DNA from: a virus
IMG/VR virus record: IMGVR_UViG_3300037847_000165
Location: 1-28,118 of that record
DNA: 28,118 nt
Strand: one strand, 5' to 3'
Positions 3,683 to 21,468 of the stretch are shown piece by piece (position 1 is the stretch's first letter; the number at the start of each line of letters is the position of its first letter). Position numbers and translations under genes: made by a program. Below the pieces are notes generated by a model. It was not told the origin of the DNA and did no database searches. It saw only the letters and a program-made list of their open reading frames with translations.

Positions 3683-4142
3683 AGATTGGTTACGCATAGT
3701 AAAGAGCTTTGGGTGTGAGGGAGACAAATGCGAGGATATTGTACAGGAGATGTACTTAAAAGCTCACACTCTAATAAATAGTGGCACAGATATAAGTTAT
3801 GGAGATGAAATAAACCACTTCTATATATACAGAATCCTGCGAAGTTTATTTATTGATTTATGTCGCAAGGAAGCGAAGATAACAAAAGTAAATGTAGAAT
3901 ACTTAGAAAAGTTTGTAGAGGAAGAAGAAGTGCAACAATACAAAGACATAGAGGGTAAAATGAAAGAATTAGATAGTCTACTAGATAAAATATATTGGTA
4001 TGATAAAAAAGTATTTGATTTAATTTCTGGTGGTATGAGTATAGCAGAACTATCTAAAAACTCAGGTATAAGTTATTACTCGTTATATAATACATACAAG
4101 AATGTAAAAAATCTAATAAAAGAAAATATACAATGGGATTAG
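3648..4142 (+). CDS. Phage-encoded sigma-70-family-like factor
   Basis: This 164-residue protein looks like a minimal two-domain sigma factor. Residues 7-75 resemble region 2: CEDIVQEMYLKAHTL (28-42) is close to the sigma DIVQETFLRA helix, and FYIYRILRSLFIDLCRKEAK (58-77) corresponds to the RNA-polymerase- and -10-contacting part. After an acidic linker (90-105), residues 120-158 (VFDLISGGMSIAELSKNSGI and the helix after it) look like the region 4 helix-turn-helix. Start: an in-frame TAA at 3642-3644 leaves TTG at 3648 as the only near start, overlapping the ATPase gene by 35 bases. The next ATG (3750) would cut into region 2. It probably redirects host RNA polymerase, and the TACGTTATA late elements are the obvious candidate targets (inference). 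Confidence 0.75.
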   Translation: MTTLEKIAQKHKDWLRIVKSFGCEGDKCEDIVQEMYLKAHTLINSGTDISYGDEINHFYIYRILRSLFIDLCRKEAKITKVNVEYLEKFVEEEEVQQYKDIEGKMKELDSLLDKIYWYDKKVFDLISGGMSIAELSKNSGISYYSLYNTYKNVKNLIKENIQWD

Positions 4143-7465: not shown

Positions 7466-7784
7466 TGGACTAATAAAATACTTTCCTGACGCACTATGCG
7501 AAGTAGCACGAGTAAGCTACATAGGGAGTAAACAACACCACCCAGACGAGGACATACATTGGGATAGAGAAAAAAGCTCAGACGACTTAGACGCACTTAT
7601 GCGACACCTAATGGAAAATGGTATGCATGATATAGATGGAGTAAGACACTCAGCAAAAATAGCATGGAGAGCATTAGCACACTTACAAAAAGAAATAGAG
7701 GGAGATAAGTTTCACGAGGGTTATGACGAGCAGTTTGGTACTTACAAAATACCACACGACCAAATAATATCTGGAACAGAATGA
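7422..7784 (+). CDS. dATP/dGTP diphosphohydrolase-like (PF18909-type) protein
   Basis: This 120-residue protein fits the phage family annotated as the dATP/dGTP diphosphohydrolase N-terminal domain (formerly DUF5664-like). It has PLYSGLIKYFPDALCEVARV (12-31), QHHPDEDIHWDREKSSDDLD (38-57), then ALMRHLMENG and DIDGVRHSAKIAWRALAHLQ (70-89). The E-x-A-R, D-D and H-S-A-K-x-A-W-R-A blocks supply the likely metal and nucleotide ligands of an all-alpha NTP pyrophosphohydrolase. It would remove purine dNTPs or shape the pool, which matters in phages with altered DNA. The methyltransferase follows with a 4-base overlap. It overlaps the DnaA-like gene by 44 bases. No PurZ or DatZ gene is present, so base substitution is not implied. 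Confidence 0.8.
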   Translation: MEKNKQKRKEIPLYSGLIKYFPDALCEVARVSYIGSKQHHPDEDIHWDREKSSDDLDALMRHLMENGMHDIDGVRHSAKIAWRALAHLQKEIEGDKFHEGYDEQFGTYKIPHDQIISGTE

Positions 7785-8638: not shown

Positions 8639-8754
8639 AACCAAAGAAATACACTACAATACAAAGAATAAAAAGATTAGAGAATATAGTAAGCCAAATC
8701 TACTTGAGTGTTGAGGTTATAAAAAAGCAGCTTGACAAAAAAGAAGAAAACTAA
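8635..8754 (+). CDS. 39-residue basic coiled-coil microprotein
   Basis: The ATG overlaps the methyltransferase TGA (ATGA). The protein MKPKKYTTIQRIKRLENIVS continues with QIYLSVEVIKKQLDKKEEN, a single basic amphipathic helix with leucine/isoleucine heptads. Its stop codon (8752-8754) lies within the upstream edge of the ACGTTATA element, so the early operon ends exactly where late transcription would start. Function unknown. Small helix proteins just before TerS are common in related phages. Confidence 0.55.
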   Translation: MKPKKYTTIQRIKRLENIVSQIYLSVEVIKKQLDKKEEN

Positions 8755-8761
8755 CGTTATA
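8753..8761 (+). promoter_or_regulatory. Late element 1 (ACGTTATA) before terminase genes
   Basis: AACGTTATA shares eight of nine bases with the TACGTTATA found before four later modules. It separates the early block from the terminase genes. A CTTGACA lies 18 bases upstream and could serve as a -33/-35 box. Unlike the other copies it does not sit 14 bases before an ATG. The TerS ATG is 36 bases downstream. Confidence 0.55.
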
Positions 8762-8763
8762 TA

Positions 8764-8777
8764 ATTGATTAATCAAT
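8764..8777. promoter_or_regulatory. Perfect 14-base palindrome, candidate operator
   Basis: ATTGATTAATCAAT is its own reverse complement. It lies directly downstream of late element 1, covering the predicted transcription start and 11 bases before the TerS ATG. The position fits a repressor or activator site controlling late transcription. No similar palindrome was noticed at the other four elements. Confidence 0.45.
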
Positions 8778-8788
8778 CTTTTTCAATT

Positions 8789-9031
8789 ATGGATAAACGC
8801 AAACTTAATGGTGGTAAAAGAGAGGGAGCAGGTAGAAAACCTAAAGCAGAAGAAGTCAAACTAATAGAGAAACTTACACCACTTGAACCTTTAGCATTTG
8901 AAGCTCTTAAAAAGGGTTTAGAGAAAGGCGACTTTAAATATGTACAACTATACTACAATTATGTAGCAGGTAAACCAAAAGAAACAAAGGACATTCACAT
9001 AAATGAAGATGTGCCTTTATTTATTGATTAA
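8789..9031 (+). CDS. terS: Terminase small subunit
   Basis: The 80-residue protein from ATG 8789 begins MDKRKLNGGKREGAGRKPKA. The NGGKREGAGRKP block is a hallmark of small terminase and related DNA-packaging proteins in Bacteroidota phages. The rest is helical (PLEPLAFEALKKGLEKGDFK) and ends in an acidic tail. A TTG at 8765 would add eight residues, but it falls inside the 14-base palindrome and the ATG gives the standard N-terminus, so the ATG is preferred. TerS recognises phage DNA and stimulates the large subunit, whose ATG overlaps this stop by one base. It is short for a TerS, with DNA-binding and oligomerisation parts compressed. Confidence 0.82.
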   Translation: MDKRKLNGGKREGAGRKPKAEEVKLIEKLTPLEPLAFEALKKGLEKGDFKYVQLYYNYVAGKPKETKDIHINEDVPLFID

Positions 9032-10200
9032 TGCAACTAACAAAAACCTCAGCACTTAACAAACTACGAGAACTAGACAAAAGAGTTCGCATAATTAGAG
9101 GAGGTTCTTCAGCAGGTAAAACTATTGGCATTATAGCAATCCTTATAGACTATGCAATAAGACACAAGGGAAAAGAAATAAGCATAGTAGCTGAATCAAT
9201 ACCACACTTGCGTAGAGGTGCTTTAAAAGACTTCTTAAATATCTTAAAGGGCTTGAATAGGTATGATGATAGAAAGTTCAACAAGAGTACCTTAAAATAC
9301 GAATTTAGTAATGGCAGCTATATAGAGTTCTTTAGCACAGACCAGCCAGACAAGCTAAGAGGAGCAAGAAGAACAGACTTATTTATAAACGAGTGTAACA
9401 ACGTCAGCTTTGATTCTTACCAACAATTAGCAGTTAGAACGTCTGGTAATATATGGCTTGACTTTAATCCTGCCAATTTATTCTGGGTAGATAAAGAACT
9501 TGTAGGACAACAAGACGCAAACTTTATAACGCTTACTTATAAGGACAATGATAGTTTACCAGAATCAATAATAAAAGAAATAGAGAAAGCAAAAGTAAAA
9601 GCTAAGACCTCTACATATTGGGCTAATTGGTGGAAAGTATATGGACTAGGACAAATAGGTAGTTTAGAGGGTGTATGCATTCCTGATTGGAAACCTATAG
9701 ACCAAATACCACAAGAAGCTAGATTATTATGTGCAGGTCTTGACTTTGGTTATTCTGTTGACCCCTCAACTATTATAAGATTATATAAATGGAATGATGC
9801 TTATATCTTCGATGAGGTATTGTATCGTAAAGGAATGTTAAATAGAGACCTCAGCTATTTCATCAAACAAAACGAGATACGAGAAAATATTTACGCAGAT
9901 AGCGCAGAGCCTAAATCAATTCAAGAGCTGAGGAACTATGGGCATAAAGTATTTCCTGTAACAAAAGGCAAAGACTCAATAGTCTATGGTATTAACTTAA
10001 TCAACCAAAACGAAATCTACATAACAAGCCATTCAAAGAATCTTATAAGAGAATTACAAGGTTATGTATGGGATAAAGACAAAGAGGGAAACAATTTGCA
10101 AAAACCTACAGGCACACACCCAGATTGTATTGATGCAGCAAGATACGCTTTAATGATGCAACTAAAGAATCCTAATAAGGGTAGATATACAATAAGTTAG
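9031..10200 (+). CDS. terL: Terminase large subunit
   Basis: This 389-residue packaging motor has all key elements. Walker A is GGSSAGKT (24-31). Walker B is DLFINECNN (116-124), with catalytic Glu121. The coupling region is WLDFNPA (142-148). The RNase H-like nuclease domain begins LCAGLDFGYSVDPST (233-247) with Asp238. A further acidic residue sits in YADSAEPKSI (288-297, Asp290), and HPDCIDAARYALM (363-375) carries the last metal ligands. This matches PBSX/T4-type TerL proteins. It cuts and translocates DNA into the prohead through the portal (21465). The Cys in FINECNN replaces the commoner Ala. The length is at the compact end for the family. It is followed by late element 2 and the tail genes, not by portal. 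Confidence 0.95.
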   Translation: MQLTKTSALNKLRELDKRVRIIRGGSSAGKTIGIIAILIDYAIRHKGKEISIVAESIPHLRRGALKDFLNILKGLNRYDDRKFNKSTLKYEFSNGSYIEFFSTDQPDKLRGARRTDLFINECNNVSFDSYQQLAVRTSGNIWLDFNPANLFWVDKELVGQQDANFITLTYKDNDSLPESIIKEIEKAKVKAKTSTYWANWWKVYGLGQIGSLEGVCIPDWKPIDQIPQEARLLCAGLDFGYSVDPSTIIRLYKWNDAYIFDEVLYRKGMLNRDLSYFIKQNEIRENIYADSAEPKSIQELRNYGHKVFPVTKGKDSIVYGINLINQNEIYITSHSKNLIRELQGYVWDKDKEGNNLQKPTGTHPDCIDAARYALMMQLKNPNKGRYTIS

Positions 10201-10220
10201 TTTCTAAAACTTTTATTTAT

Positions 10221-10229
10221 TACGTTATA
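10221..10229 (+). promoter_or_regulatory. Late element 2 (TACGTTATA) before tail module
   Basis: An exact TACGTTATA copy whose first T lies 14 bases before the ATG at 10235, the same spacing as elements 3-5. Read as a -7 box (TAnnTT), RNA would begin within about 3 bases of the ATG. No TTG is present at the -33 position. Confidence 0.6.
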
Positions 10230-10234
10230 TATAT

Positions 10235-10885
10235 ATGAAAGTAGACGTAAAGATTCCAGACACCCTTAGTGAGATTACTCTAGGGCAATATCAAAAGTAT
10301 ATTAAGATACAAGAGCAAAACGAAGATGAAAACTTTATAGCTCTTAAAATGTTAGAAATATTTTGTGGTTTGAAAGGTCAAACAGTACTTAACATGAAAA
10401 CAAAAAGCATAAAAGAAATAACTGATATTCTAGTAAAAATGTTTTCTGAAAAACCTCCACTTGTAAGAGAGTTTAAAATGAATGGTGTTAACTATGGTTT
10501 TATACCAAACTTAGAAGATATGACTTTTGGCGAATATATTGACCTAGATACGTTTGTAGGTAAGACAGAAGATTTACATAAAGCTATGGGAGTTTTATAT
10601 AGACCAATAACACATAAAAGAAAAGAATTATATTGGATACAAAAATATAAAGGCGACGACACTAACTTAATGAAAGATATGCCAATGGATGCAGTTTTTA
10701 GTTCCATGCTTTTTTTTTATCATTTAGGGACAGACTTGTCGAGAGTTATGCTGAACTATTTGGAACAGGACAACGAGGAGAATATAGCGCAGCAGCTAAT
10801 TTCTCTCGAAAATGGGGATGGTATCAATCGCTTCAAGGACTCGCTCAGGGAGATATTACAAGAATTGAAGATATCACTAAATTAA
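10235..10885 (+). CDS. Tail assembly chaperone-like protein, zero-frame product
   Basis: Read without frameshifting this gene gives 216 residues. The N-terminal 160 residues look like a compact conserved domain: IPDTLSEITLGQYQKYIKIQ near the start, a helical middle, then VNYGFIPNLEDMTFGEYIDL (about 88-107) and YRPITHK (127-133). After nine Ts at 10710-10718 the zero frame continues for 55 codons of unremarkable sequence that overlaps a much more protein-like -1 frame. The position upstream of tail completion genes and tape measure is where siphoviruses keep G/GT chaperones, which are made as short and frameshifted forms. The short form is therefore a plausible G equivalent, unless the break is an assembly error. 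Confidence 0.7.
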   Translation: MKVDVKIPDTLSEITLGQYQKYIKIQEQNEDENFIALKMLEIFCGLKGQTVLNMKTKSIKEITDILVKMFSEKPPLVREFKMNGVNYGFIPNLEDMTFGEYIDLDTFVGKTEDLHKAMGVLYRPITHKRKELYWIQKYKGDDTNLMKDMPMDAVFSSMLFFYHLGTDLSRVMLNYLEQDNEENIAQQLISLENGDGINRFKDSLREILQELKISLN

Positions 10886-10974
10886 ATCTGCATACTTGTT
10901 TGTATGCTTTAAGCTATATGAAAGACAAATCAGAACTCGAATCGAGACAAATGAAAAGTAAATTTAAAAGATGA
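10235..10974 (+). CDS. Tail assembly chaperone-like protein, -1 frameshift product
   Basis: Slipping back one base at T TTT TTT (10711-10717) joins the first 161 codons to an open -1 frame running to TGA 10972-10974, giving about 246 residues. The added 85 residues look like a genuine domain: FRDRLVESYAELFG, then NFSRKWGWYQSLQGLAQGD, then ITRIEDITKLNLHTCLYALS and a basic tail SKFKR. I associate the KWGWYxSxxxLAxGD...LHxCLxxL pattern with the C-terminal part of single-ORF homologues in Bacteroidota phages. The next gene's ATG (10971) overlaps this stop, not the zero-frame stop 86 bases upstream, which supports the -1 end as the true gene end. Either programmed frameshifting or one missing T in the assembly explains the break. 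Confidence 0.7.
10711..10717 (+). other. -1 ribosomal slippery site T TTT TTT
   Basis: Within C TTT TTT TTT A, the zero-frame codons CTT TTT TTT form a canonical X XXY YYZ heptamer, so both P- and A-site phenylalanine tRNAs can re-pair after a -1 slip. A small hairpin (GACA 10729-10732 / TGTC 10737-10740) starts 11 bases downstream but is weak. No strong upstream Shine-Dalgarno-like stimulator was seen. Confidence 0.6.
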
Positions 10975-11444
10975 GCAATCAAGGAGTAAGAGGATATTAT
11001 CAAATAACAGACACCATTAAGACTAATCTATTAGCAGATGAAAATGTCAACACAGTAACAACAGGCGATATATTTGACATTGACTTAGCTAAACAAACTA
11101 TATTCCCATTAGCTCATATTATAGTAAACTCTGTAGCGATACAAGAAGCAGTCCTCAACTTCAACATTACTATTATGTGTATGGATATAGTAGACGAATC
11201 GAAAGACGAAACAACAGACTTATTTAGAGGTAACAACAACGAGCAAGATATCCTCAACACACAACTAGCAGTAGCAAACAAATTAGTAGGATTATTAAGC
11301 AAAGGCACATTATACCAAGACAAATATCAATTATCTGGTGATGCTTCTTGTGAGTTCTTTTATGAAAGGTTTGAGAATAGATTAGCAGGGGTAGCTTGTA
11401 CTTTTAATGTATTAATAGCAAATGATATAAACGTATGCAGTTAA
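10971..11444 (+). CDS. Tail-terminator/completion-like structural protein
   Basis: This 157-residue protein begins at the ATG overlapping the -1 frame stop of the chaperone gene. It starts MSNQGVRGYYQITDTIKTNL, has FPLAHIIVNSVAIQEAVLNF (about 45-64), an acidic loop with ETTDLFRGNNNEQDILN, then NTQLAVANKLVGLLSKGTLY and FFYERFENRLAGVACTFNVL near the end. This order (strand, loop, LAVANKLV helix, ERFENRLAG strand) is what I associate with a conserved neck or tail-terminator protein in Bacteroidota phages, and the length is typical of tail terminators. It lies next to an HK97 gp10-like gene, which fits. The role is inferred from pattern and neighbours. Confidence 0.65.
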   Translation: MSNQGVRGYYQITDTIKTNLLADENVNTVTTGDIFDIDLAKQTIFPLAHIIVNSVAIQEAVLNFNITIMCMDIVDESKDETTDLFRGNNNEQDILNTQLAVANKLVGLLSKGTLYQDKYQLSGDASCEFFYERFENRLAGVACTFNVLIANDINVCS

Positions 11445-11935
11445 CCGAAGTAAAAGCAGAATTAGAAAAGTTTGCTAAGCATGTTATAAAACAAGCTAGA
11501 ACTAATTTATCAAAAAGAAAAAAAAATAGTTCAAAGAGACTATATAATAGTTTGGGTTATAATATAAACGCTAATGAAGAAAGAGTAAACGTAATTTTTC
11601 AAATGGAAGATTATGGTAAGTTTCAAGATGAGGGAGTAAGTGGAACAAAAACAAAATATAAAACACCTTATAGATATAAGTCTAAAATGCCACCAACTAA
11701 GGCTTTTAGTCAATGGGTTGTTAGAAAAGGTTTAAAAGGTGTAAGAGATGAAAAGGGAAAGTTTATTGCAAGAAAAAGTTTACAATACTTAATAGCAAGA
11801 AGTGTATTCTTACATGGGATAAAACCAAGTATGTTTTTTACTAGACCCTTCAATCAAGCATTTGACAAATTAGAGCCAGAGTTACAAGATAAATTTGGCA
11901 TAGATATAGAAAACTCAATAATTGATTTTGAATAA
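11435..11935 (+). CDS. HK97 gp10-like tail completion protein
   Basis: This is a 166-residue basic protein. An N-terminal helix (LTEVKAELEKFAKHVIKQAR) is followed by a lysine-rich loop and the strand-rich core NVIFQMEDYGKFQDEGVSGT (52-71). The Y-G-x-F-x-D-E-G-x-S-G feature is typical of gp10/minor-tail proteins. A KAFSQWVVRKGLKG helix and GIKPSMFFTRPF (about 129-140) follow. The C-terminus is acidic. Such proteins help attach the tail to the connector. It overlaps the previous gene by 10 bases and touches the next (TAATG), so the three are translationally coupled. Confidence 0.72.
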   Translation: MQLTEVKAELEKFAKHVIKQARTNLSKRKKNSSKRLYNSLGYNINANEERVNVIFQMEDYGKFQDEGVSGTKTKYKTPYRYKSKMPPTKAFSQWVVRKGLKGVRDEKGKFIARKSLQYLIARSVFLHGIKPSMFFTRPFNQAFDKLEPELQDKFGIDIENSIIDFE

Positions 11936-12864
11936 TGGCTAATATATTATTAAGAAGTCCATATTATGTAACAATAACAACAGCAGGTCATTTATCTGCT
12001 CAACTTGCATTGACCATAGATGGCACACTAAGATATACAATACTTAAAAACGCAATAAGTAACAGAACAGTATTTGAGATTGCTACATTATGTAAAGATT
12101 ATTTCAACGCAGATTATGATGCTTTAGATACAGTAAGTATATCTTATGTTGTTACTACTTTTACTGCTATAGATGGAGGAGGTACAGGCACAGCTCAAGG
12201 TGCAGTAACTCATACAGGTTATTATGGATATAGTGAATTTTGGGATGGTGTTAACCAAGACTTCGACCCAGATGACTTTGAATTAACAAACTCTGGTGGA
12301 ACACAAATATTATACTTGCCAGACAACACAGCTAGTTTTGCATGGGACATGAATAGTGGAACTGCAACAAAAACAACTATTAGCACAACTGACACAAGCA
12401 AGGCAGCAGCTTCTGGTAATTATACATGGACTATTGAAAGAGTTTGTCCTGCTAAATATACTGCTGTTCAGATGAGGTTTATTAATAAAAATGGAGTGCC
12501 ACAAGAACAATACTTTTTTCTTAAATCAGTTGAAAGCGTAGCAACAAAAAGCGAAACATTTAAAAGAAATATATTTGTTCAATCTACATCAAGCTATGGC
12601 ATAAGAGACCACCAAACTAAAACATTTAATAAAACAGGCAAGAAACGATTTACCTTAAACACAGACTATCTAGCAGAAGCATACAATAAAGTCATAGAAG
12701 ATATTTTGCTTAGTGAGTATGTCTGGATATTAGTAGATTCTAAATATCACCCTGTAACTGTTCTTACAAGTTCTTTTACAAAAAAGACATCATTAAATGA
12801 CAGATTGATACAATACACAATAGAGGTTGAGGACGCTAACGACATTATGAATAATATAGTATGA
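11935..12864 (+). CDS. Tail structural protein
   Basis: This is a 309-residue, threonine-rich, beta-dominated protein starting MANILLRSPYYVTITTAG. Central segments include GYSEFWDGVNQDFDP and QILYLPDNTASFAWDM. The C-terminal third reads YGIRDHQTKTFNKTGKKRFT and then ILLSEYVWILVDSKYHPVTV. The RSPYY opening and the W-V-x-x-x-x-x-x-P-V-x-V end are features I connect with conserved tail or baseplate structural proteins of Bacteroidota phages. No enzymatic motif is visible. It lies between completion proteins and the 693-residue tail protein, before the tape measure, so it is likely part of the tail tip or shaft. Confidence 0.62.
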   Translation: MANILLRSPYYVTITTAGHLSAQLALTIDGTLRYTILKNAISNRTVFEIATLCKDYFNADYDALDTVSISYVVTTFTAIDGGGTGTAQGAVTHTGYYGYSEFWDGVNQDFDPDDFELTNSGGTQILYLPDNTASFAWDMNSGTATKTTISTTDTSKAAASGNYTWTIERVCPAKYTAVQMRFINKNGVPQEQYFFLKSVESVATKSETFKRNIFVQSTSSYGIRDHQTKTFNKTGKKRFTLNTDYLAEAYNKVIEDILLSEYVWILVDSKYHPVTVLTSSFTKKTSLNDRLIQYTIEVEDANDIMNNIV

Positions 12865-14942
12865 GGCGTGAGGTACAATTATTTATATCAGATACTAGAG
12901 TTGATTTGTTCCAAGATGAAACAATTAGCATTACAGATTCTTTACAAAATGTCTCAGACATAAGTAAAATTTTCTCGCCTTTTTCTAAACAATTTAATTT
13001 ACCTGCCTCAGCTACAAACAATATACTTTTTAAGCATTATTATAACTTTGATATTACAGGTGGTTTTGATGCTAGGTTTAGAGTTGATGCAAGAATCGAA
13101 ATAAACCACGCACCATTTAGAACAGGTCAAATAAGACTTGAGGGAGTAACTATGAAAAACAACTTACCTCATACATATAAAATTGTCTTTCTAGGTGAGG
13201 TTAGTAATTTAAATGATATTTTTGGAGATGAGGAACTAAGCTCTCTAAATGGTTTGTCTACTTATGACATTAGTCTAAGTAACAATGATTTTATACAAGC
13301 GTTCAAAGTAGGTTTACAAAGCACAGCAACAGATGCAACAAGCACAGCTAATCGTAACATAGTAGTTCCAACAATACTGTTAAAAAACTTTTATACATAC
13401 GACACGCCAAGCACAAACAGATTAGATAATGTAGCATTTACAACTTTACAAGAAGATTTAAAACCTGCGATAAAAATAAAAAGAATTATTGAAGCCATAC
13501 AAACTCAATACGACATAACCTTTAATATGGCAGATGAGGGAAGTATTAAAACGTTTTTTGGCTCTGATGTATTTGATGAATTGTACTTATGGTTGCATAG
13601 AGAAAAAACACCTATAACATTACCTGAAACAAGTCCACCTACTTTTGGAGTAGATACTGCAACAAAAAGTAAAAAGCTTACATTTGCTGATTTTACTTAT
13701 GTATCTGGAGGTTCTGGCACAATACTGACTGCAAACAAGTTAGTTGTAAGAGAAGGCGAAGATTATGGTATTAGATTAGTACTAGACCCAGCTACAACAA
13801 ATAACACAGGTGAAATAATTGTTAAAGACAAAACAACAAACGAATTATTATTTTATAAAGATAATGTTGAATTTAACAATAGCTCTAATCTTTCTGTCCC
13901 TCTGATGAATTTAACAAGTGGTAATCTAACTGAAAGAACTTACGATATAGAATTTAGAATTAATTGTCAAGTGTCTGTTAATTTTGGCGCATTGAATCCT
14001 GCCTTAGTAATAACTCAAAACAGCACCACATTATTCAATTATAGTGCCTCAGCATTTAGTTTAAGCTCAAATATTTTTATACAGGACTATATACCTAAAA
14101 TGAAAGTTTTAGACTTTCTTACAGGACTTTTTAAAATGTTTAATTTGGTTGCTTATGTTAAAAAAAATAACTCTACAATATATGTGCAAACCTTTGACGA
14201 TTTTATGACACTTGGCACAAGTAGAGACATAACAGAATATGTTGATATAAACCAAAGCACTATCGATAGACCAATTCCATACAATAGAGTAAACTTCAAA
14301 TTTTCAAGCCCTGTAACGCAAACGAGTTTAAAATATGTAAACCAGTTTAGTCAAGTGTTTGGTGATTTAAGATATTCAGCACCAGAAAAATACGATGGAC
14401 AGGAGTTTAATTTACAAGTGCCATTTGAAAGAACTATACTAATAAACCAGCTTGACAACTCAGGAACTAGAACTAATAACATAATTGCATGGTGGGTCGA
14501 TGATGGTGGCTCTACAACACTAGGAAAACCATTTATATTTTTTAACAGAGTTATTGACCAAAGTGGTGGGAGTGGCTTTCCTATTACTAATGGAAACCTT
14601 ACAGAATATAACGCTCCCTCAAGTGTTTCTAGCGACCAAAACCATACAATAAACTTTGGAGCTGAGTTTGATGAATTTAATGAAGCAGTAAACACAAATA
14701 GTTTATTTAGTAGATTCTATCAACAATATATAGAGCAAACTTTTAATTTAAAGGGTCGTATTGTAAAGGTCTCTGCAAATTTACCTGTGAGCTTTATTTT
14801 AAATTACAACGTAAATGACACTATTGTTATTAATGGTCAGGATTATTATATAAATAGTTTGAGTATAAATTTAGCAACAGGCAAATCAGATTTAGAACTT
14901 TTAGTCAAAACAAAAACATACACAAGTAGTGTACTAACATAA
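12861..14942 (+). CDS. Large tail/baseplate structural protein
   Basis: This is a 693-residue protein. The first 150 residues are the most recognisable: REVQLFISDTRVDLFQDETI, then SDISKIFSPFSKQFNLPASA and FKHYYNFDI, then INHAPFRTGQIRLEGVTMKN and HTYKIVFLGEVSNLNDIFGD. I associate this run (S-K-Q-F-x-x-P-x-S-x-x-N and F-K-H-Y-Y-N) with a conserved large tail protein of Bacteroidota phages. Residues 260-420 are beta-rich and Thr/Asn-rich. The C-terminus ends in a domain with NVNDTIVINGQDYYINSLSI. The position before the tape measure is compatible with distal-tail or tail-tip assembly. Exact function is not assignable from sequence. Confidence 0.68.
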   Translation: MRREVQLFISDTRVDLFQDETISITDSLQNVSDISKIFSPFSKQFNLPASATNNILFKHYYNFDITGGFDARFRVDARIEINHAPFRTGQIRLEGVTMKNNLPHTYKIVFLGEVSNLNDIFGDEELSSLNGLSTYDISLSNNDFIQAFKVGLQSTATDATSTANRNIVVPTILLKNFYTYDTPSTNRLDNVAFTTLQEDLKPAIKIKRIIEAIQTQYDITFNMADEGSIKTFFGSDVFDELYLWLHREKTPITLPETSPPTFGVDTATKSKKLTFADFTYVSGGSGTILTANKLVVREGEDYGIRLVLDPATTNNTGEIIVKDKTTNELLFYKDNVEFNNSSNLSVPLMNLTSGNLTERTYDIEFRINCQVSVNFGALNPALVITQNSTTLFNYSASAFSLSSNIFIQDYIPKMKVLDFLTGLFKMFNLVAYVKKNNSTIYVQTFDDFMTLGTSRDITEYVDINQSTIDRPIPYNRVNFKFSSPVTQTSLKYVNQFSQVFGDLRYSAPEKYDGQEFNLQVPFERTILINQLDNSGTRTNNIIAWWVDDGGSTTLGKPFIFFNRVIDQSGGSGFPITNGNLTEYNAPSSVSSDQNHTINFGAEFDEFNEAVNTNSLFSRFYQQYIEQTFNLKGRIVKVSANLPVSFILNYNVNDTIVINGQDYYINSLSINLATGKSDLELLVKTKTYTSSVLT

Positions 14943-15085
14943 TGATAAAAAATATATTAGAATTATTGCCACTTGTACAAGGCGAAACAGAAAACATAAG
15001 AATTGCAAAAGGCAAATATAAACTTCCAGAAAGTGTTAAGGAAGCATGGCAACGATTTAAGCAACAACAGAAAAACAAAAAATAA
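14942..15085 (+). CDS. 47-residue small protein before tape measure
   Basis: The start ATG shares its A with the preceding TAA, and the stop shares a base with the tape-measure ATG (TAATG). The protein MIKNILELLPLVQGETENIR continues IAKGKYKLPESVKEAWQRFK and ends in a lysine/glutamine tail. The seamless spacing and protein-like composition (no low complexity before the tail) argue it is translated. It may be a small tail-assembly factor. No family is recognised. Confidence 0.62.
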   Translation: MIKNILELLPLVQGETENIRIAKGKYKLPESVKEAWQRFKQQQKNKK

Positions 15086-16941
15086 TGAGTAAAGAAGTCA
15101 AAATAGAATTAATTGTTGATTCAGGAGAAGCACAAAAAAATATTCAAGATGTTAATGCAGGACTTGATAAAACTGACAAGAATCTAAAGCAAACAAACAA
15201 AACTGCTAAAAAAGGTAAAAAAGGTTTTATAAGTTTAGCAGGTGGGGCTAGAGTATTAGGAGCAGCTTTAAAAGCAGCAGGTATTGGTCTTGTTATATCA
15301 GCTATAGCAGGTTTAAGCTCAGCTATGTCAAACAATCAAAAAGTGATGGACACTTTAAGTTTAGCCACAGGAACAGTTACACAATTTTTTACTGATTTAG
15401 TAGCTGCTGTTACAGACGCCTTTACAGCAACAGAAGATTTTACAAGTCAGTTTGATGCCTTAGGTAGAATTGTAGGTGCATTTGTTACTGGTGTAGGTGC
15501 AAATTTTTCTACTACGTTTCAAGCAATTAGAGGTAGTGTTTTAGGCGCACAACTTGCTTTTGAAAAATCTTTTTTTGGTGGTAACGATGCTGATAAAATT
15601 AAAGAGCTAGAAAGTGGTTTAATAGATGTAAACTTAAAACTTGTAGAGAATGCACGAACTGTCTTAGATTCAACAAAAACTATTGTTAAATCAATACCAG
15701 AAGCTGTTGGAGAAGTTGTAAATATAACTACAACAGCAGCAGACGCTGTAACAAAAGTAAGTATTAAAAGTGCATTTGAAACAACAAAAAACTTGCAACA
15801 ACTTACCAAAGAAGCAGAATTAGCAAAAGTGAAGAATCAAGGTTTAATAGAGGAGTTTGATAGGTTAGCAGAAAAACAAAGACAAATAAGAGATGACGAT
15901 AGAAAAGGTATTAATGAAAGAATAGAGGCAAACGAAAAATTATTAGAGCATTTAGAAGACCAGAAAGAAAAGATGTTAGAAAATGCAAAGGCTATGAAAG
16001 CTCAAGCTCAAGCTCAGTTTGACGCTAATAAAAGTGATGCAAATAACATAAAACTTCAAGAGGCAAAAAACGAATTGAAAGCAATAGAAGCTCAAATAGA
16101 AGGTTTTATGTCTGAGCAAAAATCAAATGCTGTTGCTTTAGAAAAAGAATTAAACGAATTAGAAATATCTGGTTTACAAAATAAAGCAGAGTTACAAAAA
16201 GCAGAAAGAGATTTTAAAGCTGAGATGATACAAGATGATGTAAAGCGAACTCAAATGCTGATAGATAATCTTGCAATCGAAAAAGAATTAGACAGAGAAA
16301 GGTTACAATCAAAAATAGATTCCTTTCAAGCAGGAACACAAGCTCAACAAGATGCTCAACAAGAATTAGATTTATTTTTAGCAGAGAGTGCAAGAACAGA
16401 AAAAAAATTAAAAGCTGATTTAGTAAAATTTACTGACGCAGCAGATAAAAAATCAGCCGATAACGAGAAAAAATTACAAAAACAAAAAGTAGAAAACATA
16501 AGAGGTGCGCTATCCGATATAGCAAGTATCGTAGGTGCTAACTCAAAGTTTGGTAAAGCTATAGCTATTGTACAAGCAATTCAAGACACTTTTGCAGGTG
16601 CTAACAAAGCTCTAGCACAAGGTGGTATATTTGGTTTTATTGGAGCAGCTTCAGTAATTGCAGCAGGTCTTGCTAATGTAAAAACAATTACGAGTACTAA
16701 GTCACCTAAACCACCTGCAAGTTTAGGGGCAAGAGATACAGGAGAAAGCGCACCTGCGATTCCAGCAGCAGCTACAGCTTCTTTACCTCCACAATTTGAT
16801 ACAGTTGGAGCAAGTGGTATAAATCAACTAGCAGATGTTTTAGGAAACCAAGCACCACCAAGAGCATTTGTTGTATCAGGAGATGTAAGTACAGCACAGG
16901 AATTAGATAGAAATATTATTAGTAGTGCAAGTATAGGATAA
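15085..16941 (+). CDS. Tape measure protein
   Basis: This 618-residue protein fits a siphovirus tail length ruler. It has an N-terminal helical region (SGEAQKNIQDVNAGLDKTDK), a hydrophobic segment (about 50-80, VLGAALKAAGIGLVISAIAG) and a second hydrophobic patch (about 92-112). A long K/E/Q-rich coiled coil follows from about 235 to 470, including a short AQAQAQ stretch. A C-terminal hydrophobic module (GKAIAIVQAIQDTFAGANKA then GIFGFIGAASVIAAGLANVK) is typical of Bacteroidota-phage tape measures. Helical tape measures span roughly 0.15 nm per residue, which would suggest a tail near 90 nm. No peptidoglycan hydrolase domain is visible. The order tail proteins then tape measure then head genes is unusual. 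Confidence 0.85.
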   Translation: MSKEVKIELIVDSGEAQKNIQDVNAGLDKTDKNLKQTNKTAKKGKKGFISLAGGARVLGAALKAAGIGLVISAIAGLSSAMSNNQKVMDTLSLATGTVTQFFTDLVAAVTDAFTATEDFTSQFDALGRIVGAFVTGVGANFSTTFQAIRGSVLGAQLAFEKSFFGGNDADKIKELESGLIDVNLKLVENARTVLDSTKTIVKSIPEAVGEVVNITTTAADAVTKVSIKSAFETTKNLQQLTKEAELAKVKNQGLIEEFDRLAEKQRQIRDDDRKGINERIEANEKLLEHLEDQKEKMLENAKAMKAQAQAQFDANKSDANNIKLQEAKNELKAIEAQIEGFMSEQKSNAVALEKELNELEISGLQNKAELQKAERDFKAEMIQDDVKRTQMLIDNLAIEKELDRERLQSKIDSFQAGTQAQQDAQQELDLFLAESARTEKKLKADLVKFTDAADKKSADNEKKLQKQKVENIRGALSDIASIVGANSKFGKAIAIVQAIQDTFAGANKALAQGGIFGFIGAASVIAAGLANVKTITSTKSPKPPASLGARDTGESAPAIPAAATASLPPQFDTVGASGINQLADVLGNQAPPRAFVVSGDVSTAQELDRNIISSASIG

Positions 16942-16958
16942 ACAAAATAATAAATTAA

Positions 16959-16967
16959 TACGTTATA
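16959..16967 (+). promoter_or_regulatory. Late element 3 (TACGTTATA) before head module
   Basis: An exact TACGTTATA copy in the 31-base gap after the tape measure gene, with its first T 14 bases before the ATG at 16973. No -33 TTG is seen. It would give the protease gene its own, nearly leaderless transcript. Confidence 0.6.
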
Positions 16968-16972
16968 CATAT

Positions 16973-18544
16973 ATGAGAATCGTTGAATTAATTTTAGGAG
17001 ATGATGAGCTAACAGGAATTGAAGCTATATCTGTAGTAGAAAATCCTGCAATAGAAGAAGATTTTATCGCACTTAAAAGCGAAGAAATAAAACTTGCTGA
17101 GGTAGACAAAGAGAAGCGTATTCTCATGGGTGCTTTACTAATTCCTAACAAACCTATTTACAGAAAAAAAGGCGAAGAAGAATATTATATATATTTTTCA
17201 AAAGACACAGTATCTAAAGCATCTCAATTATACTTAATGAATGGCAATCAGTCAAAAGCAACATTAGAACACCAACACACGATTAATGGACTGACACTTG
17301 TTGAATCTTGGTTAGTAGAAGATGAGGTACATGATAAATCAAGAAAGTATGGATTAAATGTTCCTCTAGGTACTTGGATGGGTGCAGTAAAAGTAAACAA
17401 TGATGATATCTGGAACAACTTTGTAAAAACAGGTAAAGTTAAAGGTTTCAGTATAGAGGGTTACTTTGCTGACAAAATGGAAAGACCTAAAGAACCTGTA
17501 AACGACTTTGAGGAAGAAGAAGCAGAAGAAATGTTGTCTGTAATAAGGTCTATAATAAAAGAGGACAAACGTTTAAAGGGTGGTAAGAGACGAGAACTCG
17601 AAGCATATAGCGATTACCCAGACGCAGTAAAGAACAACGCTAAAAGAGGTATAGAACTAAACGACAAAGTCAACAATAAATGTGCTACACAAGTTGGCAA
17701 GATACGAGCTAGACAACTAGCACAGGGTCAACCAATCTCCAAAGAAACAATAAAGAGAATGTTTTCTTTTTTAAGTAGAGCAGAGGAATACTACGATGAA
17801 AGCGATACAAAAGCGTGTGGCACTATATCTTATTTACTTTGGGGTGGTAAAGCAGGTAAGAGATATGCAGAGTCTAAACTAAAAGAATTAGAAGAACTGG
17901 AATTAGCTAGTATGGTTGTCAATGACGAGTTTGCAATAATAGACGACAGACTTGGATATTCAACACAAGAGAAAGCTGAGGAAATGGCTAAGAACATAGG
18001 ATGCGAAGGTTTTCATACGCACGAGTTTGAGGGCAAAACTTGGTATATGCCTTGTGAGTTTCACATAAAAGAGGATATGAAGAAATGTCCTAAGGGTTTT
18101 AAAAAAGTCTATGGTAAGTGTGTTAAAATGGCTGAGGTAGGCGAAAGAGGTGGAATTCGTAAATCTCCTAAAGCACCAAAGTCAGATACACCAAATCCAA
18201 ACCCAAAAGGCAAAGGAACAGCAAAAGGCGATGCCTCTACAACAAGAGGTGCTAAGGTGTCTAAAAAAGATGAAGCGACTTTAAAAAAAAAGTCTGACGA
18301 GTTTAACGAGAGATACAAAAAGAAATTAGGTTATGGTGTAAATGTAGGAATGTTAAAAGCAGTATTCCAAAGAGGTTTAGGTGCATTTAACGTTTCAAGA
18401 AGTCCTAGAGTTTCTAGTGCTTCACAATGGAGTTTTGCTAGAGTAAACGCTTTTTTGTACTTAGTAAAAAATGGTAGACCACAAAACAAGAAGTACACAG
18501 GCGACAACGATTTGCTACCAAAAGGACACCCTAAAAAACCATAA
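16973..18544 (+). CDS. XkdF-type prohead protease with extra C-terminal modules
   Basis: This is a 523-residue multidomain protein. Residues 1-170 match the XkdF-like phage serine protease: DDELTGIEAISVVENPAIEE, MGALLIPNKPIYRK, a histidine-bearing TLEHQHTINGLTLVESW (98-114), LGTWMGAVKV and VKGFSIEGYF (156-165), where Ser160 is the likely nucleophile and His100 or His102 the partner. Residues 207-310 form a second module (YSDYPDAVKNNAKRGIELND, CATQVGKIRARQLAQG, ACGTISYLLWGGKAG). Residues 334-385 hold GCEGFHTHEFEGKTWYMPCE. Residues 440-523 form another module (GYGVNVGMLKAVFQRGLGAF to LLPKGHPKK), separated by a Pro/Gly/Lys-rich linker. The protease matures scaffold and capsid, whose genes follow. 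The added modules are known to me as movable pieces in phage head proteins, without clear function. Confidence 0.82.
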   Translation: MRIVELILGDDELTGIEAISVVENPAIEEDFIALKSEEIKLAEVDKEKRILMGALLIPNKPIYRKKGEEEYYIYFSKDTVSKASQLYLMNGNQSKATLEHQHTINGLTLVESWLVEDEVHDKSRKYGLNVPLGTWMGAVKVNNDDIWNNFVKTGKVKGFSIEGYFADKMERPKEPVNDFEEEEAEEMLSVIRSIIKEDKRLKGGKRRELEAYSDYPDAVKNNAKRGIELNDKVNNKCATQVGKIRARQLAQGQPISKETIKRMFSFLSRAEEYYDESDTKACGTISYLLWGGKAGKRYAESKLKELEELELASMVVNDEFAIIDDRLGYSTQEKAEEMAKNIGCEGFHTHEFEGKTWYMPCEFHIKEDMKKCPKGFKKVYGKCVKMAEVGERGGIRKSPKAPKSDTPNPNPKGKGTAKGDASTTRGAKVSKKDEATLKKKSDEFNERYKKKLGYGVNVGMLKAVFQRGLGAFNVSRSPRVSSASQWSFARVNAFLYLVKNGRPQNKKYTGDNDLLPKGHPKKP

Positions 18545-18663
18545 TGGCTAGAAAAGTCGTTAATATATATAGAAAGAATAAACGTAAATCACACCCACAT
18601 AGCAAAAATGCGAGTGTAGGACAAACAGGATATAAAAAACAATACAGAGGTCAAGGTAGATGA
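18544..18663 (+). CDS. Small basic head-region protein
   Basis: This 39-residue protein (MARKVVNIYRKNKRKSHPHS, then KNASVGQTGYKKQYRGQGR) is very rich in K and R. It starts by sharing a base with the protease stop and ends by overlapping the next ATG. The YKKxYRGQG(R) ending recurs, as I recall, in small proteins near capsid genes of Bacteroidota phages. Its charge suits binding packaged DNA or the acidic scaffold protein. Function is unproven. Confidence 0.65.
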   Translation: MARKVVNIYRKNKRKSHPHSKNASVGQTGYKKQYRGQGR

Positions 18664-18791
18664 AAAAATTTGAAACACCAAGTAAGACAAGTCCAAGAGG
18701 AGGGCGTAGAGGTTGTTTATGTAAAGATGAAACCTATTCAGTAAGGTGCTGTAAGGGTAATATAATAAATCAAGGCATTGGTAAAGTATAA
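18660..18791 (+). CDS. Cys-rich small head-region protein
   Basis: The 43-residue protein MKKFETPSKTSPRGGRRGCL continues CKDETYSVRCCKGNIINQGI and ends GKV. The C-x-C-x-D-x-x-Y-S-x-x-C-C-x-G plus Q-G-I-G pattern is one I associate with small proteins beside capsid genes in Bacteroidota phages. Four cysteines could bind zinc or form a disulfide-stabilised knot, for instance on the capsid surface. It overlaps the preceding stop (ATGA) and is followed by late element 4. Confidence 0.66.
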   Translation: MKKFETPSKTSPRGGRRGCLCKDETYSVRCCKGNIINQGIGKV

Positions 18792-18812
18792 AAATGCAAA
18801 TATAAATTTAAA

Positions 18813-18821
18813 TACGTTATA
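18813..18821 (+). promoter_or_regulatory. Late element 4 (TACGTTATA) before scaffold/capsid genes
   Basis: An exact TACGTTATA copy in the 35-base gap, with its first T 14 bases before the ATG at 18827. It would drive scaffold and major capsid, the most abundant products, up to the terminator at 20412. Confidence 0.6.
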
Positions 18822-18826
18822 GTAAT

Positions 18827-19411
18827 ATGAAATCAACAGAAATCTTAAACAAAATCAAAACTTTCTTAGGAGAGGAGATACAAGAAGAAACTCAACTCAC
18901 TGAGGAAGTATTAGAACTAGCACAATTAAAGCTAGAAAATGGAACAGTATTAGAAGCTGATTCTTTTGAAGCAGGTAAAGAAGTTTTTATTCTTACTGAA
19001 GATGAAAAAGTAGCTGTACCAAAAGGTGAATACCAAATGGAAGATGGCAGAATGTTAGTAGTCGAAGAAGAAGGACTTATAGCAGAAATTAAAGCTGCTG
19101 AAGAAAAAGAACCTACAGTAGAGGAAGAAGATAGAACAGACGCTGAAGAAGAAAAAGAAGAAATGCAATACGTTCGTAAAGAAGAATTTGAAAATGCAGT
19201 TGAGGAAATCAAAGGCATGATTAAAGAGCTAAAGGAAGAAAAGAAAGAGAAAGAAGAAATGGCAGAGCAAGTTAAAGAAGAACTTAGCAAAACTCCTGCT
19301 GTAGAGCCTATCTCTCACAATCCAGAAGCAAAACAAGAATTTAAAGTAAAGTTCGGACAAAACAGGAAAGAAACTGCTTTAGATAGAGTAATGAAAAAAT
19401 TAACCAATTAA
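18827..19411 (+). CDS. Capsid scaffolding protein
   Basis: This is a 194-residue, strongly acidic protein. Residues 30-85 form a small strand-rich part (LENGTVLEADSFEAGKEVFI, VPKGEYQMEDGRMLVVEEEG), residues 90-160 a Glu/Lys coiled coil, and the C-terminal 40 residues are basic and end in ALDRVMKKLTN. A coiled coil with a positively charged C-terminus that docks on the capsid protein is the classic scaffold layout. The location directly between protease and major capsid genes supports it. It is probably removed by the XkdF-type protease before packaging. It heads its own promoter-like element. Confidence 0.78.
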   Translation: MKSTEILNKIKTFLGEEIQEETQLTEEVLELAQLKLENGTVLEADSFEAGKEVFILTEDEKVAVPKGEYQMEDGRMLVVEEEGLIAEIKAAEEKEPTVEEEDRTDAEEEKEEMQYVRKEEFENAVEEIKGMIKELKEEKKEKEEMAEQVKEELSKTPAVEPISHNPEAKQEFKVKFGQNRKETALDRVMKKLTN

Positions 19412-19421
19412 ATATTAAAAA

Positions 19422-20381
19422 ATGCCAAATCCAACAATAACAAGTAGTAGTTATGCAGGAGAATTTGCAGGTAAATATATTGCTGCGAGTTTATTAACAG
19501 CAAAAACTTTAGATGATGCTGCGATAACTATTCTACCAAACATTAAATTTAAAGCTGCTATGAAAGTAGGGGCTTTCTCAAGTTTAGTAAGAAGTGCTGA
19601 TTGTGATTTCGATTCTTCGACTTCAGGTCTTACACTTACTGAAAAAGTATTAACTCCAACTGAGTTACAAGTTAACCTACAGATTTGTAAAAAAGAATTA
19701 CACGCTGATTGGGAAGCTGCTCAAATGGGCTTTTCTGCTTTTGATAATTTACCACCATTATTTTCTGACTTCGTTATCGCAAGAGTAGCAGCAGAGGTTG
19801 CAAGTGCAACTGAAACTTCTATCTGGGATGGTGCAGCAGGAGAGGGTAACTTTGATGGCTTTAGAGCTTTAGCTTTAGCTGATGGAACTGTAAACGATGT
19901 TACAGGAACAACAGTAACTTCTGCAAACGTAATCACAGAAATGGGAAAAATCGTTGACGCTATTCCTAGTGGAGTTTATGGAGCAGATGACTTAAACATT
20001 TATGTATCACAAAACATCTTCAAAGCGTATGTAAGAGCTTTAGGTGGGTTTGCTAGTGTAACTAGTGGTTCAGGTGCTACAGCAGGTGTTGCAGGTATCG
20101 GAGCTAATGGTGTAGAAAATAGAGGTAACCTATGGTATCAAGGTGGTGCTTTATCTTTCGATGGTATCAACATTTACCCATCATCAGGTTTTAGAGATAA
20201 CTGTGCTATCGCAGCAAGGTCAAGTAACTTATTCTTTGGAACAGGTTTATTGAATGACAGAAACGAAGTAAAAGTTATCGATATGTCTGACATTGATGGT
20301 TCACAAAATGTAAGAGTAGTAATGAGATATACAGCAGGTGTACAAATCGGTGTAGGTGCTGACGTAGTTCTTTACGACTAA
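19422..20381 (+). CDS. Major capsid protein
   Basis: This 319-residue protein looks like a Bacteroidota-phage major capsid protein of probable HK97 fold. It has an N-terminal AGEFAGKYIAASLLTAKTLD, then ITILPNIKFKAAMKVGAF, a central ICKKELHADWEAAQMGFSAF (about 87-106), FSDFVIARVAAEVASATETS (a long spine-like helix) and IWDGAAGEG, then beta-rich regions including LNIYVSQNIFKAYVRALGG. It ends VRVVMRYTAGVQIGVGADVV. The length suits a capsid protein without an internal delta domain, consistent with a separate scaffold upstream. It follows scaffold by 10 bases and precedes a strong terminator, so the scaffold-capsid pair forms a transcription unit. Confidence 0.85.
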   Translation: MPNPTITSSSYAGEFAGKYIAASLLTAKTLDDAAITILPNIKFKAAMKVGAFSSLVRSADCDFDSSTSGLTLTEKVLTPTELQVNLQICKKELHADWEAAQMGFSAFDNLPPLFSDFVIARVAAEVASATETSIWDGAAGEGNFDGFRALALADGTVNDVTGTTVTSANVITEMGKIVDAIPSGVYGADDLNIYVSQNIFKAYVRALGGFASVTSGSGATAGVAGIGANGVENRGNLWYQGGALSFDGINIYPSSGFRDNCAIAARSSNLFFGTGLLNDRNEVKVIDMSDIDGSQNVRVVMRYTAGVQIGVGADVVLYD

Positions 20382-20411
20382 TAAATAAATTAAATTAACA
20401 TATAAGAGGGT

Positions 20412-20436
20412 GGGTAGTTTCTGCCTACCCTTTTTT
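20412..20436 (+). terminator. Terminator after major capsid gene
   Basis: GGGTAG (20412-20417) pairs with CTACCC (20425-20430), with loop TTTCTGC, and six Ts follow. It lies 30 bases after the capsid stop. No TACGTTATA or host-type promoter was found before the next gene at 20451, so partial read-through is likely. Confidence 0.82.
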
Positions 20437-20450
20437 AATACTTAGAAAAT

Positions 20451-20975
20451 ATGGCTTGTATATTAACAAAAGGTAGAGCTTTACCCTGTAAAACAGGAGT
20501 AGGTGGTTTAAAAGCTGTTTACTTTTCAGACTATGGTAGTTATGGTGCTTTGACACAATCTGGAGGAGAAGTTTCTGGGTTTGGTGGAAGTCCTACATTA
20601 ATGAAGTTTGACATTAAAGGCACATCAACGCTTGACACGACTGTAACATCATCAAGAGAAAATGGAACAACTTTCTACGAATCAACTTTAGTTCTTAACT
20701 TAACATTCCAAGAAAAAGCAACATCAGAAGAAATTAAATTATTAGCAGTTGCAAGACCACAAATCATTGTAGCTGATTATAATGGAAATTTCTTTTTATT
20801 AGGCGAAGTACATGGAAATGAGTTAACGACTGGAACGTTTTCAAGTGGAGCTGCTATGGGAGATATGTCTGGTTATTCCTTGACATTCACATCATCTGAG
20901 GTTAATCCTCCATTATTTGTACAGAAATCTGTAATAGATGGTGCAACTGAGGGTACTCAAATAACACCTAATTAA
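20451..20975 (+). CDS. Probable major tail tube protein
   Basis: This is a 174-residue, beta-rich protein. It opens MACILTKGRALPCKTGVGGL, followed by KAVYFSDYG. The middle reads MKFDIKGTSTLDTTVTSSRE and NGTTFYESTLVLNLTFQEKA. The end contains IIVADYNGNFFLLGEVHGNE and AMGDMSGYSLTFTSSEVNPP. The C...KGR...C...GG-(I/L)-K opening, the S-R-E-N-G-T-x-F-Y-E strand and the G-Y-S-x-T-F-x-S-x-E end are features I connect with the conserved tube-type protein of Bacteroidota siphophages. It stands between two terminators, giving an isolated single-gene unit that may be set by read-through from the capsid gene. Confidence 0.68.
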   Translation: MACILTKGRALPCKTGVGGLKAVYFSDYGSYGALTQSGGEVSGFGGSPTLMKFDIKGTSTLDTTVTSSRENGTTFYESTLVLNLTFQEKATSEEIKLLAVARPQIIVADYNGNFFLLGEVHGNELTTGTFSSGAAMGDMSGYSLTFTSSEVNPPLFVQKSVIDGATEGTQITPN

Positions 20976-21040
20976 AATTAATTTTGTATATTGAAGAAAA
21001 CTTAGAGTTTTCATAATTTTAAATTAGTTTTGTTTTTAAA

Positions 21041-21067
21041 GGGGAGTTTTCGGACTCCTCTTTTTTT
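21041..21067 (+). terminator. Terminator before portal unit
   Basis: GGGGAGT (21041-21047) pairs with ACTCCTC (21054-21060), including one G-T pair, with loop TTTCGG and seven Ts. Late element 5 begins 22 bases further on, so a unit boundary is well defined here. Confidence 0.85.
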
Positions 21068-21088
21068 ATACACAAAATCTAAAGTTTG

Positions 21089-21097
21089 TACGTTATA
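21089..21097 (+). promoter_or_regulatory. Late element 5 (TACGTTATA) before portal unit
   Basis: An exact TACGTTATA copy with its first T 14 bases before the ATG at 21103, directly after a strong terminator. The terminator-then-element order is the best positional support for a promoter role. Without it the portal, adaptor and fibre genes would lack a start site. Confidence 0.65.
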
Positions 21098-21102
21098 TAA
21101 GT

Positions 21103-21468
21103 ATGATACACTTAACAACATCTGCTTCTGCACAAACTATAAAAGTGATTCCAAGAAGTTATGCTAGTACAGTAAGTATGATACTGAGAGACGATTCGAC
21201 AAACACCTCAACAACATACTCATCAATAAGCACATCAACAGATAAAAATTATTTAGTAGTATCAAAGGCTTTAAGTCCTGTTTTGGTTGAGGGTAGGTTT
21301 TATGATTTAACTTTAAAAGAGGGGTCGAGTGTAATTTATAAAGATAAAATCTTTTGTACTGCACAAACAATTAACCAAGCTAATAATGACAATTACACAA
21401 TTAATAGTGGAGAATATACTATTCCAACAGGAGACGACAAGCATGATAACGATTATATTATAGTATGA
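21103..21468 (+). CDS. Small structural protein before portal
   Basis: This is a 121-residue, beta-rich, Ser/Thr-rich protein. It has IHLTTSASAQTIKVIPRSYA at the start, SMILRDDSTNTSTTY, then VEGRFYDLTLKEGSSVIYKD (about 61-80) and KIFCTAQTI, ending YTIPTGDDKHDNDYIIV. The (L/V)xEGxFYxLxxKxGxxVIYKxKIFCTxQ stretch is one I recognise from small Bacteroidota-phage proteins beside portal genes, role unknown. It could be a decoration or connector accessory. It overlaps the portal gene by 4 bases and is the first gene after late element 5. Confidence 0.68.
   Translation: MIHLTTSASAQTIKVIPRSYASTVSMILRDDSTNTSTTYSSISTSTDKNYLVVSKALSPVLVEGRFYDLTLKEGSSVIYKDKIFCTAQTINQANNDNYTINSGEYTIPTGDDKHDNDYIIV

Follow-up and report, generated by a model that had tools for sequence, protein, structure and literature searches.

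The window considered here, that is, the whole stretch of DNA analysed, is a complete IMG/VR virus record (IMGVR_UViG_3300037847_000165) of 28,118 bases, with a G+C content of 32% and no tRNA, in which a short repeated element precedes the late gene modules. The element, TACGTTATA, is found on the + strand only, at 10221, 16959, 18813 and 21089, in each case 14 nucleotides (nt) 5' of an ATG (10235, 16973, 18827 and 21103, respectively), and a fifth copy, AACGTTATA at 8753-8761, lies 36 nt from the small-terminase ATG at 8789 and thus does not have the 14-nt spacing. The large terminase of the window is nearest to those of Flavobacterium phages (49%) and its portal to that of the Nonlabens/Persicivirga phage P12024S (41% identical); on the basis of these relationships, the host most likely belongs to Bacteroidota, and the habitat is probably marine. 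The elements, the genes they precede and the gene of their proposed reader, a sigma factor of the extracytoplasmic function (ECF) type, are as follows:

3648..4142, + strand: ECF-type sigma factor gene (164 amino acids, TTG start), the proposed late-promoter reader, recognised by profile matches and fold
8736..8767, + strand: candidate late promoter of the terminase genes; CAAAAAA at 8736-8742, -10 box CGTTAT at 8755-8760, predicted +1 at G8767 with a 22-nt leader to ATG 8789
8789..9031, + strand: small terminase subunit-like gene, which opens the packaging unit directly 5' of the large terminase (weak match to PHROG_38011)
9031..10200, + strand: large terminase (PHROG_2, 2.5e-42; Pfam Terminase_3/3C)
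10204..10235, + strand: candidate late promoter of gene 10235; CTAAAA at 10204-10209, -10 box CGTTAT at 10223-10228, predicted +1 at the A of ATG 10235
10235..10885, + strand: first gene of the tail unit, with no assigned function (PHROG_32199)
16943..16973, + strand: candidate late promoter of the protease gene; CAAAA at 16943-16947, -10 box CGTTAT at 16961-16966, predicted +1 at the A of ATG 16973
16973..18544, + strand: XkdF-type (S78_2) head protease (Pfam PF14550, 6.8e-13)
18797..18827, + strand: candidate late promoter of the scaffold-like and capsid genes; CAAA at 18797-18800, -10 box CGTTAT at 18815-18820, predicted +1 at the A of ATG 18827
18827..19411, + strand: acidic scaffold-like protein preceding the capsid gene (second half of PHROG_24921; putative scaffold role)
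21073..21103, + strand: candidate late promoter of gene 21103 and the portal; CAAAA at 21073-21077, -10 box CGTTAT at 21091-21096, predicted +1 at the A of ATG 21103
21103..21468, + strand: gene of 121 amino acids preceding the portal, which starts at 21465 (PHROG_33693, 1.2e-124)

An earlier, sequence-only reading of the window had reported the four copies at 14 bases from an ATG and a fifth element before the terminase genes, each opening a functional block. For the four copies, positions and spacing proved exact, the fifth element being AACGTTATA at 8753, 36 nt from its ATG, and the module starts (terminase 8789/9031, 10235, protease 16973, 18827 and 21103) are also right. Such an arrangement is not expected by chance: in 300 dinucleotide shuffles of the window, TACGTTATA was found on the + strand 0.12 times on average and TACGTTATA-N5-ATG not once (expectation 0), and the commonest 9-mer at ATG-14 reached at most 3 copies in any shuffle vs 4 in the window.

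Conservation in relatives and anatomy of the probable promoters

Scans with the terminase and portal led to 160 loci in related records, all of them metagenomic, with proteins 64-100% identical. The search for TACGTTATA-N5-ATG in related genomes, which the earlier reading had suggested, bears out the element: the same genes carry it, and shuffled sequence yields 0. In these loci, the late strand has 163 copies of TACGTTATA and the other strand 14 (2 and 23 for a reversed-motif control), and 121 of the copies lie exactly 14 nt from an ATG opening an open reading frame (ORF). After deduplication, 92 of 125 sites precede by 14 nt the ATG of the same four gene families (21103, 33 sites; 10235, 31; protease, 23; scaffold-like protein, 5), an additional 12 lie 35-44 nt 5' of the small terminase, and most of those left over are within coding sequence or truncated by a contig end. 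Late genes inside operons are devoid of the element. A de novo k-mer-by-offset search on the pooled loci was dominated by orthologous coding sequence and was replaced by a per-genome comparison of orthologous starts. As a negative control, Flavobacterium phage FpV9, which has the nearest cultured terminase (49%), shows neither a detectable relative of the sigma factor nor a version of the element.

Some of the related records look like joined genomes. The loci L016/L187/L188 (record G007, 47.7 kb) and L036 (record G012, 53 kb) come from records roughly double the normal size, in which the sigma is present in two distinct copies and the late promoter sets are repeated; both records are probably joined or chimeric assemblies.

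Among relatives the hexamer CGTTAT is invariant and the two preceding bases are variable (TA, AA, TT, AT, CA), so the real element is that at -12 to -6 and not TACGTT. The earlier proposal that TACGTT represents the TAnnTT -7 core of Bacteroidota has consequently to be given up: its TA is not conserved, the TAnnTTTG consensus does not fit (the core being CGTTATA) and, as described below, the element follows the phage ECF-type sigma, whose gene the earlier reading had overlooked. The -33 TTTG of Bacteroidota sigmaA promoters is also absent from the late element, as had been said, but an upstream box, overlooked at the time, does exist in the form of C(A/T)AAA at about -31 to -26. In dereplicated logos of the CGTTAT, CGATAT and TTATAT classes of late promoter, AAA stands at -29 to -27 in 91-100% of sites, usually preceded by C(A/T), and is followed by an A/T-rich spacer, the hexamer and a T at -1 (100%). 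This T-1 is found before the four late genes in 92% of cases vs 45% before other intergenic starts. Judged from these alignments, the late promoters are bipartite, with a pyrimidine-purine start step.

For the position of the start, the reference is the consensus of Mycobacterium tuberculosis sigmaH, which, numbered from +1, reads G-11 T-10 T-9 (PMC6411747); the same register on the late promoters would place +1 on the A of the ATG. In the terminase leaders, where TTATATA also matches within CGTTATATA and the counts use a register allowing for that, a pyrimidine-purine step is found 12 nt past the first base of the hexamer in 98 of 102 cases (T-G 77, T-A 21), and it is retained in 12 of 14 late starts in which the ATG is shifted. 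Since the step stays in place where the ATG moves, its position depends on the -10 box rather than on the ATG. For the four genes, 160 of 174 sites would give a message without a leader (0 nt); the terminase leader would measure 21-41 nt. Thus, from the -10 register and the start step, most late messages are predicted to be leaderless, with the 5' end at the start codon, and the late promoters with leaderless late mRNAs put forward by the earlier reading are well supported by comparative evidence.

In the terminase case, the leader (8764-8788) contains a conserved palindrome, ATTGATTAATCAAT in the window and CTTGAATAATCAAG in others, which overlaps the predicted +1 and changes in step with a second TCAAT/TCAAG immediately 5' of the small-terminase ATG. 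An operator, an RNA hairpin or a packaging site are possible roles for this palindrome.

The phage sigma factor and its changes with the promoters

The sigma ORF (3648-4142) matches TIGR02937 (sigma70-ECF, E=1e-9), PHROG_1740 (sigma factor, E=2.7e-7) and Pfam Sigma70_r2 (E=1.1e-4). The matches are below the curated cut-offs and describe a divergent member by score, supported by its fold and its conserved neighbours. The solved structures closest in fold to an AlphaFold model built with 54 relatives (pLDDT, the model's confidence score, 86) include E. coli sigmaE and M. tuberculosis sigmaH, sigmaE and sigmaL. The full-length model aligns with E. coli sigmaE (1or7, 6jbq) and the M. tuberculosis sigmaH/sigmaL chains at Z of about 10, and its single domains superpose at 2-2.4 Å on ECF sigma structures. 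In searches by sequence, no solved structure matched significantly. With 164 amino acids, the protein has the make-up of ECF (group 4) sigma factors, which consist only of sigma2 and sigma4 domains in about 160-200 amino acids, and the late promoters show the CGT-type -10 and AA-rich -35 boxes at rigid spacing proper to that group, which the window sigma would read. No anti-sigma was recognised among the annotated neighbours of the gene, although no systematic search was made.

The distribution of the sigma gene accompanies that of the promoter. Among 50 long relatives, 44 have the sigma and 31 the exact promoter; of the records with TACGTTATA-N5-ATG, 26 of 31 carry the sigma, as do 20 of the 20 measuring 23 kb or more. 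The records with promoter and without sigma (G001, G003, G018, G029 and G034) are short (18.4-22.7 kb) and likely fragments. Outside this group, a tblastn search of 50,697 phage records with the window sigma gave no relative at E 0.1, and a scan of 84,980 bacterial and archaeal species gave one weak match only (24% identity, E 4e-5), which gives no indication of prophages.

Diverged relatives retain the late promoters in a changed form, those of one genome being altered in concert at -12 to -7. CGATAT is found in G042/G043 (one gene having CTATAT) and in G025/G026, TTATAT in G031/G033/G035/G036/G037 and AGTTAT in G048-G050, and G022/G023 and G044 retain CGTTAT preceded by TT. One version common to several unrelated genes of each genome is what would be expected from a single trans-acting reader. 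Sigma factors and late starts were taken from 216 loci, the starts being picked by homology to reference proteins and blind to the motif, and among the dereplicated sites the -10 box changes with residue 66 of the sigma. Thus, CGTTAT is present at 66 of 79 sites with Ser66 and 20 of 21 with Thr66 (jointly 86 of 100), A stands at -10 in 42 of 48 sites with Gly66, and with Asn66 the counts are 10 of 40 for AGTTAT and 2 of 40 for CGTTAT. Column 66 is the most informative of all sigma columns on the -10 base.

On the sigma tree, the -10 base has switched from T to A on two separate occasions, both with Gly66: one in G042/L343, a clade in which L210 still has Thr66 and T, and another on the G025 branch, with the CTATAT and TTATAT groups. 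L365, at one time taken as an exception for residue 66 and counted as a third change, was an artefact, its start lying 2 nt further on (TACGTTATATATATATATG). The loci L371-L417, with a sigma of the G050 type, form a separate Asn66 group with AAGTTATA promoters and the element on fewer late genes. In the HMMER alignment, the helix YRILRSLFIDLCRK pairs without gaps with YRILTNTFINSYRK of SigR, and Ser66 falls on a SigR Asn. The equivalent Asn of sigmaH, N88, contacts T-10 and has been proposed to help set its specificity (PMC6411747), a report that was read after the covariation at residue 66 had been detected.

A proposed late switch and its rivals

The five elements are very probably late promoters, read by the host core RNA polymerase together with the phage's own ECF-type sigma. 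Host sigmaA enzyme would read the early genes first, the sigma gene among them, and the phage sigma would then open the late units, its domain 4 reading C(A/T)AAA at about -31 to -26 and its domain 2 melting and reading CGTTAT at -12 to -7. The start would be fixed 12 nt past the C, on the T-1/purine+1 step, which at four of the five promoters corresponds to the A of the ATG and would give leaderless late mRNAs, the terminase mRNA having a 22-nt leader. The elements, their conservation, the sigma gene, its concerted change with the promoters and the register of the start step are observed directly; binding by the sigma, the start sites and the temporal order are predictions, and the order has modest support in the distribution of the host sigmaA type of promoter: TTTG-N18-22-TAnnTTTG occurs 5' of non-late genes 9 times vs 0.7 expected (mononucleotide shuffle) and 5' of late genes twice vs 0.55 expected. 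The wider proposal, that an abundant and mostly uncultured lineage has leaderless late promoters read by its own ECF sigma, in which at least two joint switches of residue 66 and the -10 base have taken place, has in our judgement slightly better than even chances.

Several observations weigh against the proposed switch. The distance between the upstream and -10 boxes is 2-3 bp shorter than that of sigmaH promoters, the TIGR02937 score of the sigma (38.2 bits) is below the curated cut-off of 42.9, and the site counts in relatives ignore kinship. Other sigma columns also correlate with the -10 base, and the residue-base pair test, with only two switches, is not significant. In the Asn66 group, 28 of 40 dereplicated sites have no clear element, partly because of distant phages or wrong starts. 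Finally, leaderless messages are a minority in Flavobacterium, representing 5.5% of the mapped mRNAs of F. psychrophilum (PMC9723704).

Other explanations have been considered. Variant host sigmaA promoters of the TAnnTTTG type, switched on late by a phage activator bound to the A-rich box near -29, would account for the superficial fit of TACGTT to TAnnTT and for the apparent use of the complete sigmaA type by early genes (9 vs 0.7, as above), but TA at -14/-13 is unconserved, there is no TTTG and changes in the conserved core accompany those of a phage sigma residue, which makes this explanation improbable. An operator for another DNA-binding protein of the phage, in place of a core promoter box, is less probable still: the strictly single orientation, the fixed distance to the start step, the ECF-like CGT core and the second box at fixed spacing all speak against it, even though the window encodes other small helix-turn-helix-like proteins, such as the DnaA-C-like one at 7037-7465.

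The least credit is given to two further possibilities, both highly implausible. The very constant 14-nt spacing to the ATG might reflect a translation-initiation signal in the mRNA, but the terminase copy, mostly 35-38 nt off, keeps its distance to the start step rather than to the ATG, another box is present farther 5' and operon-internal genes do without the element. Similarly, the CGT -10 box of Flavobacterium ECF promoters (SM6, PMC9723704) raises the case of a host ECF sigma reading the late promoters while the phage sigma serves others; this would make the late genes of the phage dependent on stress sigmas of the host, and the element tracks the phage sigma across lineages.

Reading by the phage sigma, if confirmed, would have several consequences. 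The system is likely the late-gene switch of a large, mostly marine and apparently Bacteroidota-infecting phage group, for which no description of such a switch was found. Capsid, tail and portal messages would be leaderless and, since such messages are a minority in Flavobacterium, these phages would be a good case for the study of leaderless translation in that genus. Moreover, the matched natural variants of sigma and promoter make the specificity of the residue for the -10 base directly testable, and the switches at residue 66 and -10 would constitute a natural record of a sigma and its whole regulon changing specificity together.

Other features of the window may be mentioned. The protease and the scaffold-like protein (16973-19411) correspond to the first and second parts of one PHROG (24921) and resemble a split version of the fused protease-scaffold of other phages, the second part having its own late promoter. 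The early block includes a small DnaA C-terminal-like protein (7037-7465, Pfam 7e-5) and a dATP/dGTP diphosphohydrolase N-terminal-like protein (7422-7784, 9.4e-11). At 2722-2749, shortly 5' of the sigma gene, a terminator-like hairpin, GGGGGTTTAACGACCCCC, followed by seven T, abuts the ATG of the helicase gene 2750, and relatives have similar hairpins there.

Comparison with known systems

A close parallel is offered by phiEco32 and Salmonella phage 7-11, whose sigma factors use tAATGTAtA and the late motif TGATGTTATA (PMC4331800, PMC7881722). These phages also encode an ECF-like sigma, leave their early genes to the host sigma and precede their structural genes with a -10 motif of 9-12 bp that ends in TATA, and the window group likewise has its motif before late structural genes. 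However, they are podophages that infect enterobacteria, and their promoters have an extended -10 but lack a recognisable -35 (PMC5333181), whereas the window group has the upstream A box, a predicted +1 on the ATG, a different lineage and the concerted switch. Homology to the phiEco32 sigma was not detected by tblastn at E 0.1, yet the window sigma matches the phage sigma family PHROG_1740 (2.7e-7).

The late promoters further resemble those of cellular ECF sigmas (M. tuberculosis sigmaH, E. coli sigmaE, F. psychrophilum SM6) in the CGT/GTT -10 core and the two-domain sigma (PMC6411747, PMC9723704), and sigmaH also in that the equivalent of position 66 contacts T-10 (PMC6411747). They differ in the upstream box, which is C(A/T)AAA and not GGAA and is 2-3 bp closer, and in serving a viral late regulon.

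No description of a Bacteroidota phage sigma with such promoters, or of leaderless late mRNAs of a phage sigma, was found in the open-access literature. In T4, with gp55 and its late promoters (TATAAATA), and in SPO1, with gp28, a phage sigma also takes the host RNA polymerase to the late genes. T4 late transcription requires in addition the sliding clamp and gp33, and those sigmas are unrelated or very distant. The phage-sigma late regulon is of a kind already known from phiEco32 and 7-11, and it is this element, its lineage and its leaderless register that appear to be undescribed.

Close cultured counterparts are P12024S and P12024L (Inhavirus), for whose promoters no description was found in open-access papers. 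They share with the window a portal 41% identical, an ECF sigma ORF, CGTTAAT at -12 of late genes and AAAACAAA upstream, and P12024S differs in a sigma 24% identical to that of the window and a core that ends as CGTTAA, not CGTTAT. In P12024S (JQ823122), a marine phage, CGTTAAT lies exactly 12 nt before five ATGs (3019, 5400, 23949, 25189 and 26790), all with AAAACAAA upstream, five sites for CGTTAAT-N5-ATG vs a shuffle mean of 0.05. With a sixth site one base shorter (AAAACAAA at 21247) and CGTTAC at 167, the total comes to five to seven late promoters. Its sigma is ORF P12024S_33 (L506 20595-21074), annotated as hypothetical with sigma-70 region 2, and the availability of this phage in culture makes the claim on the start sites testable.

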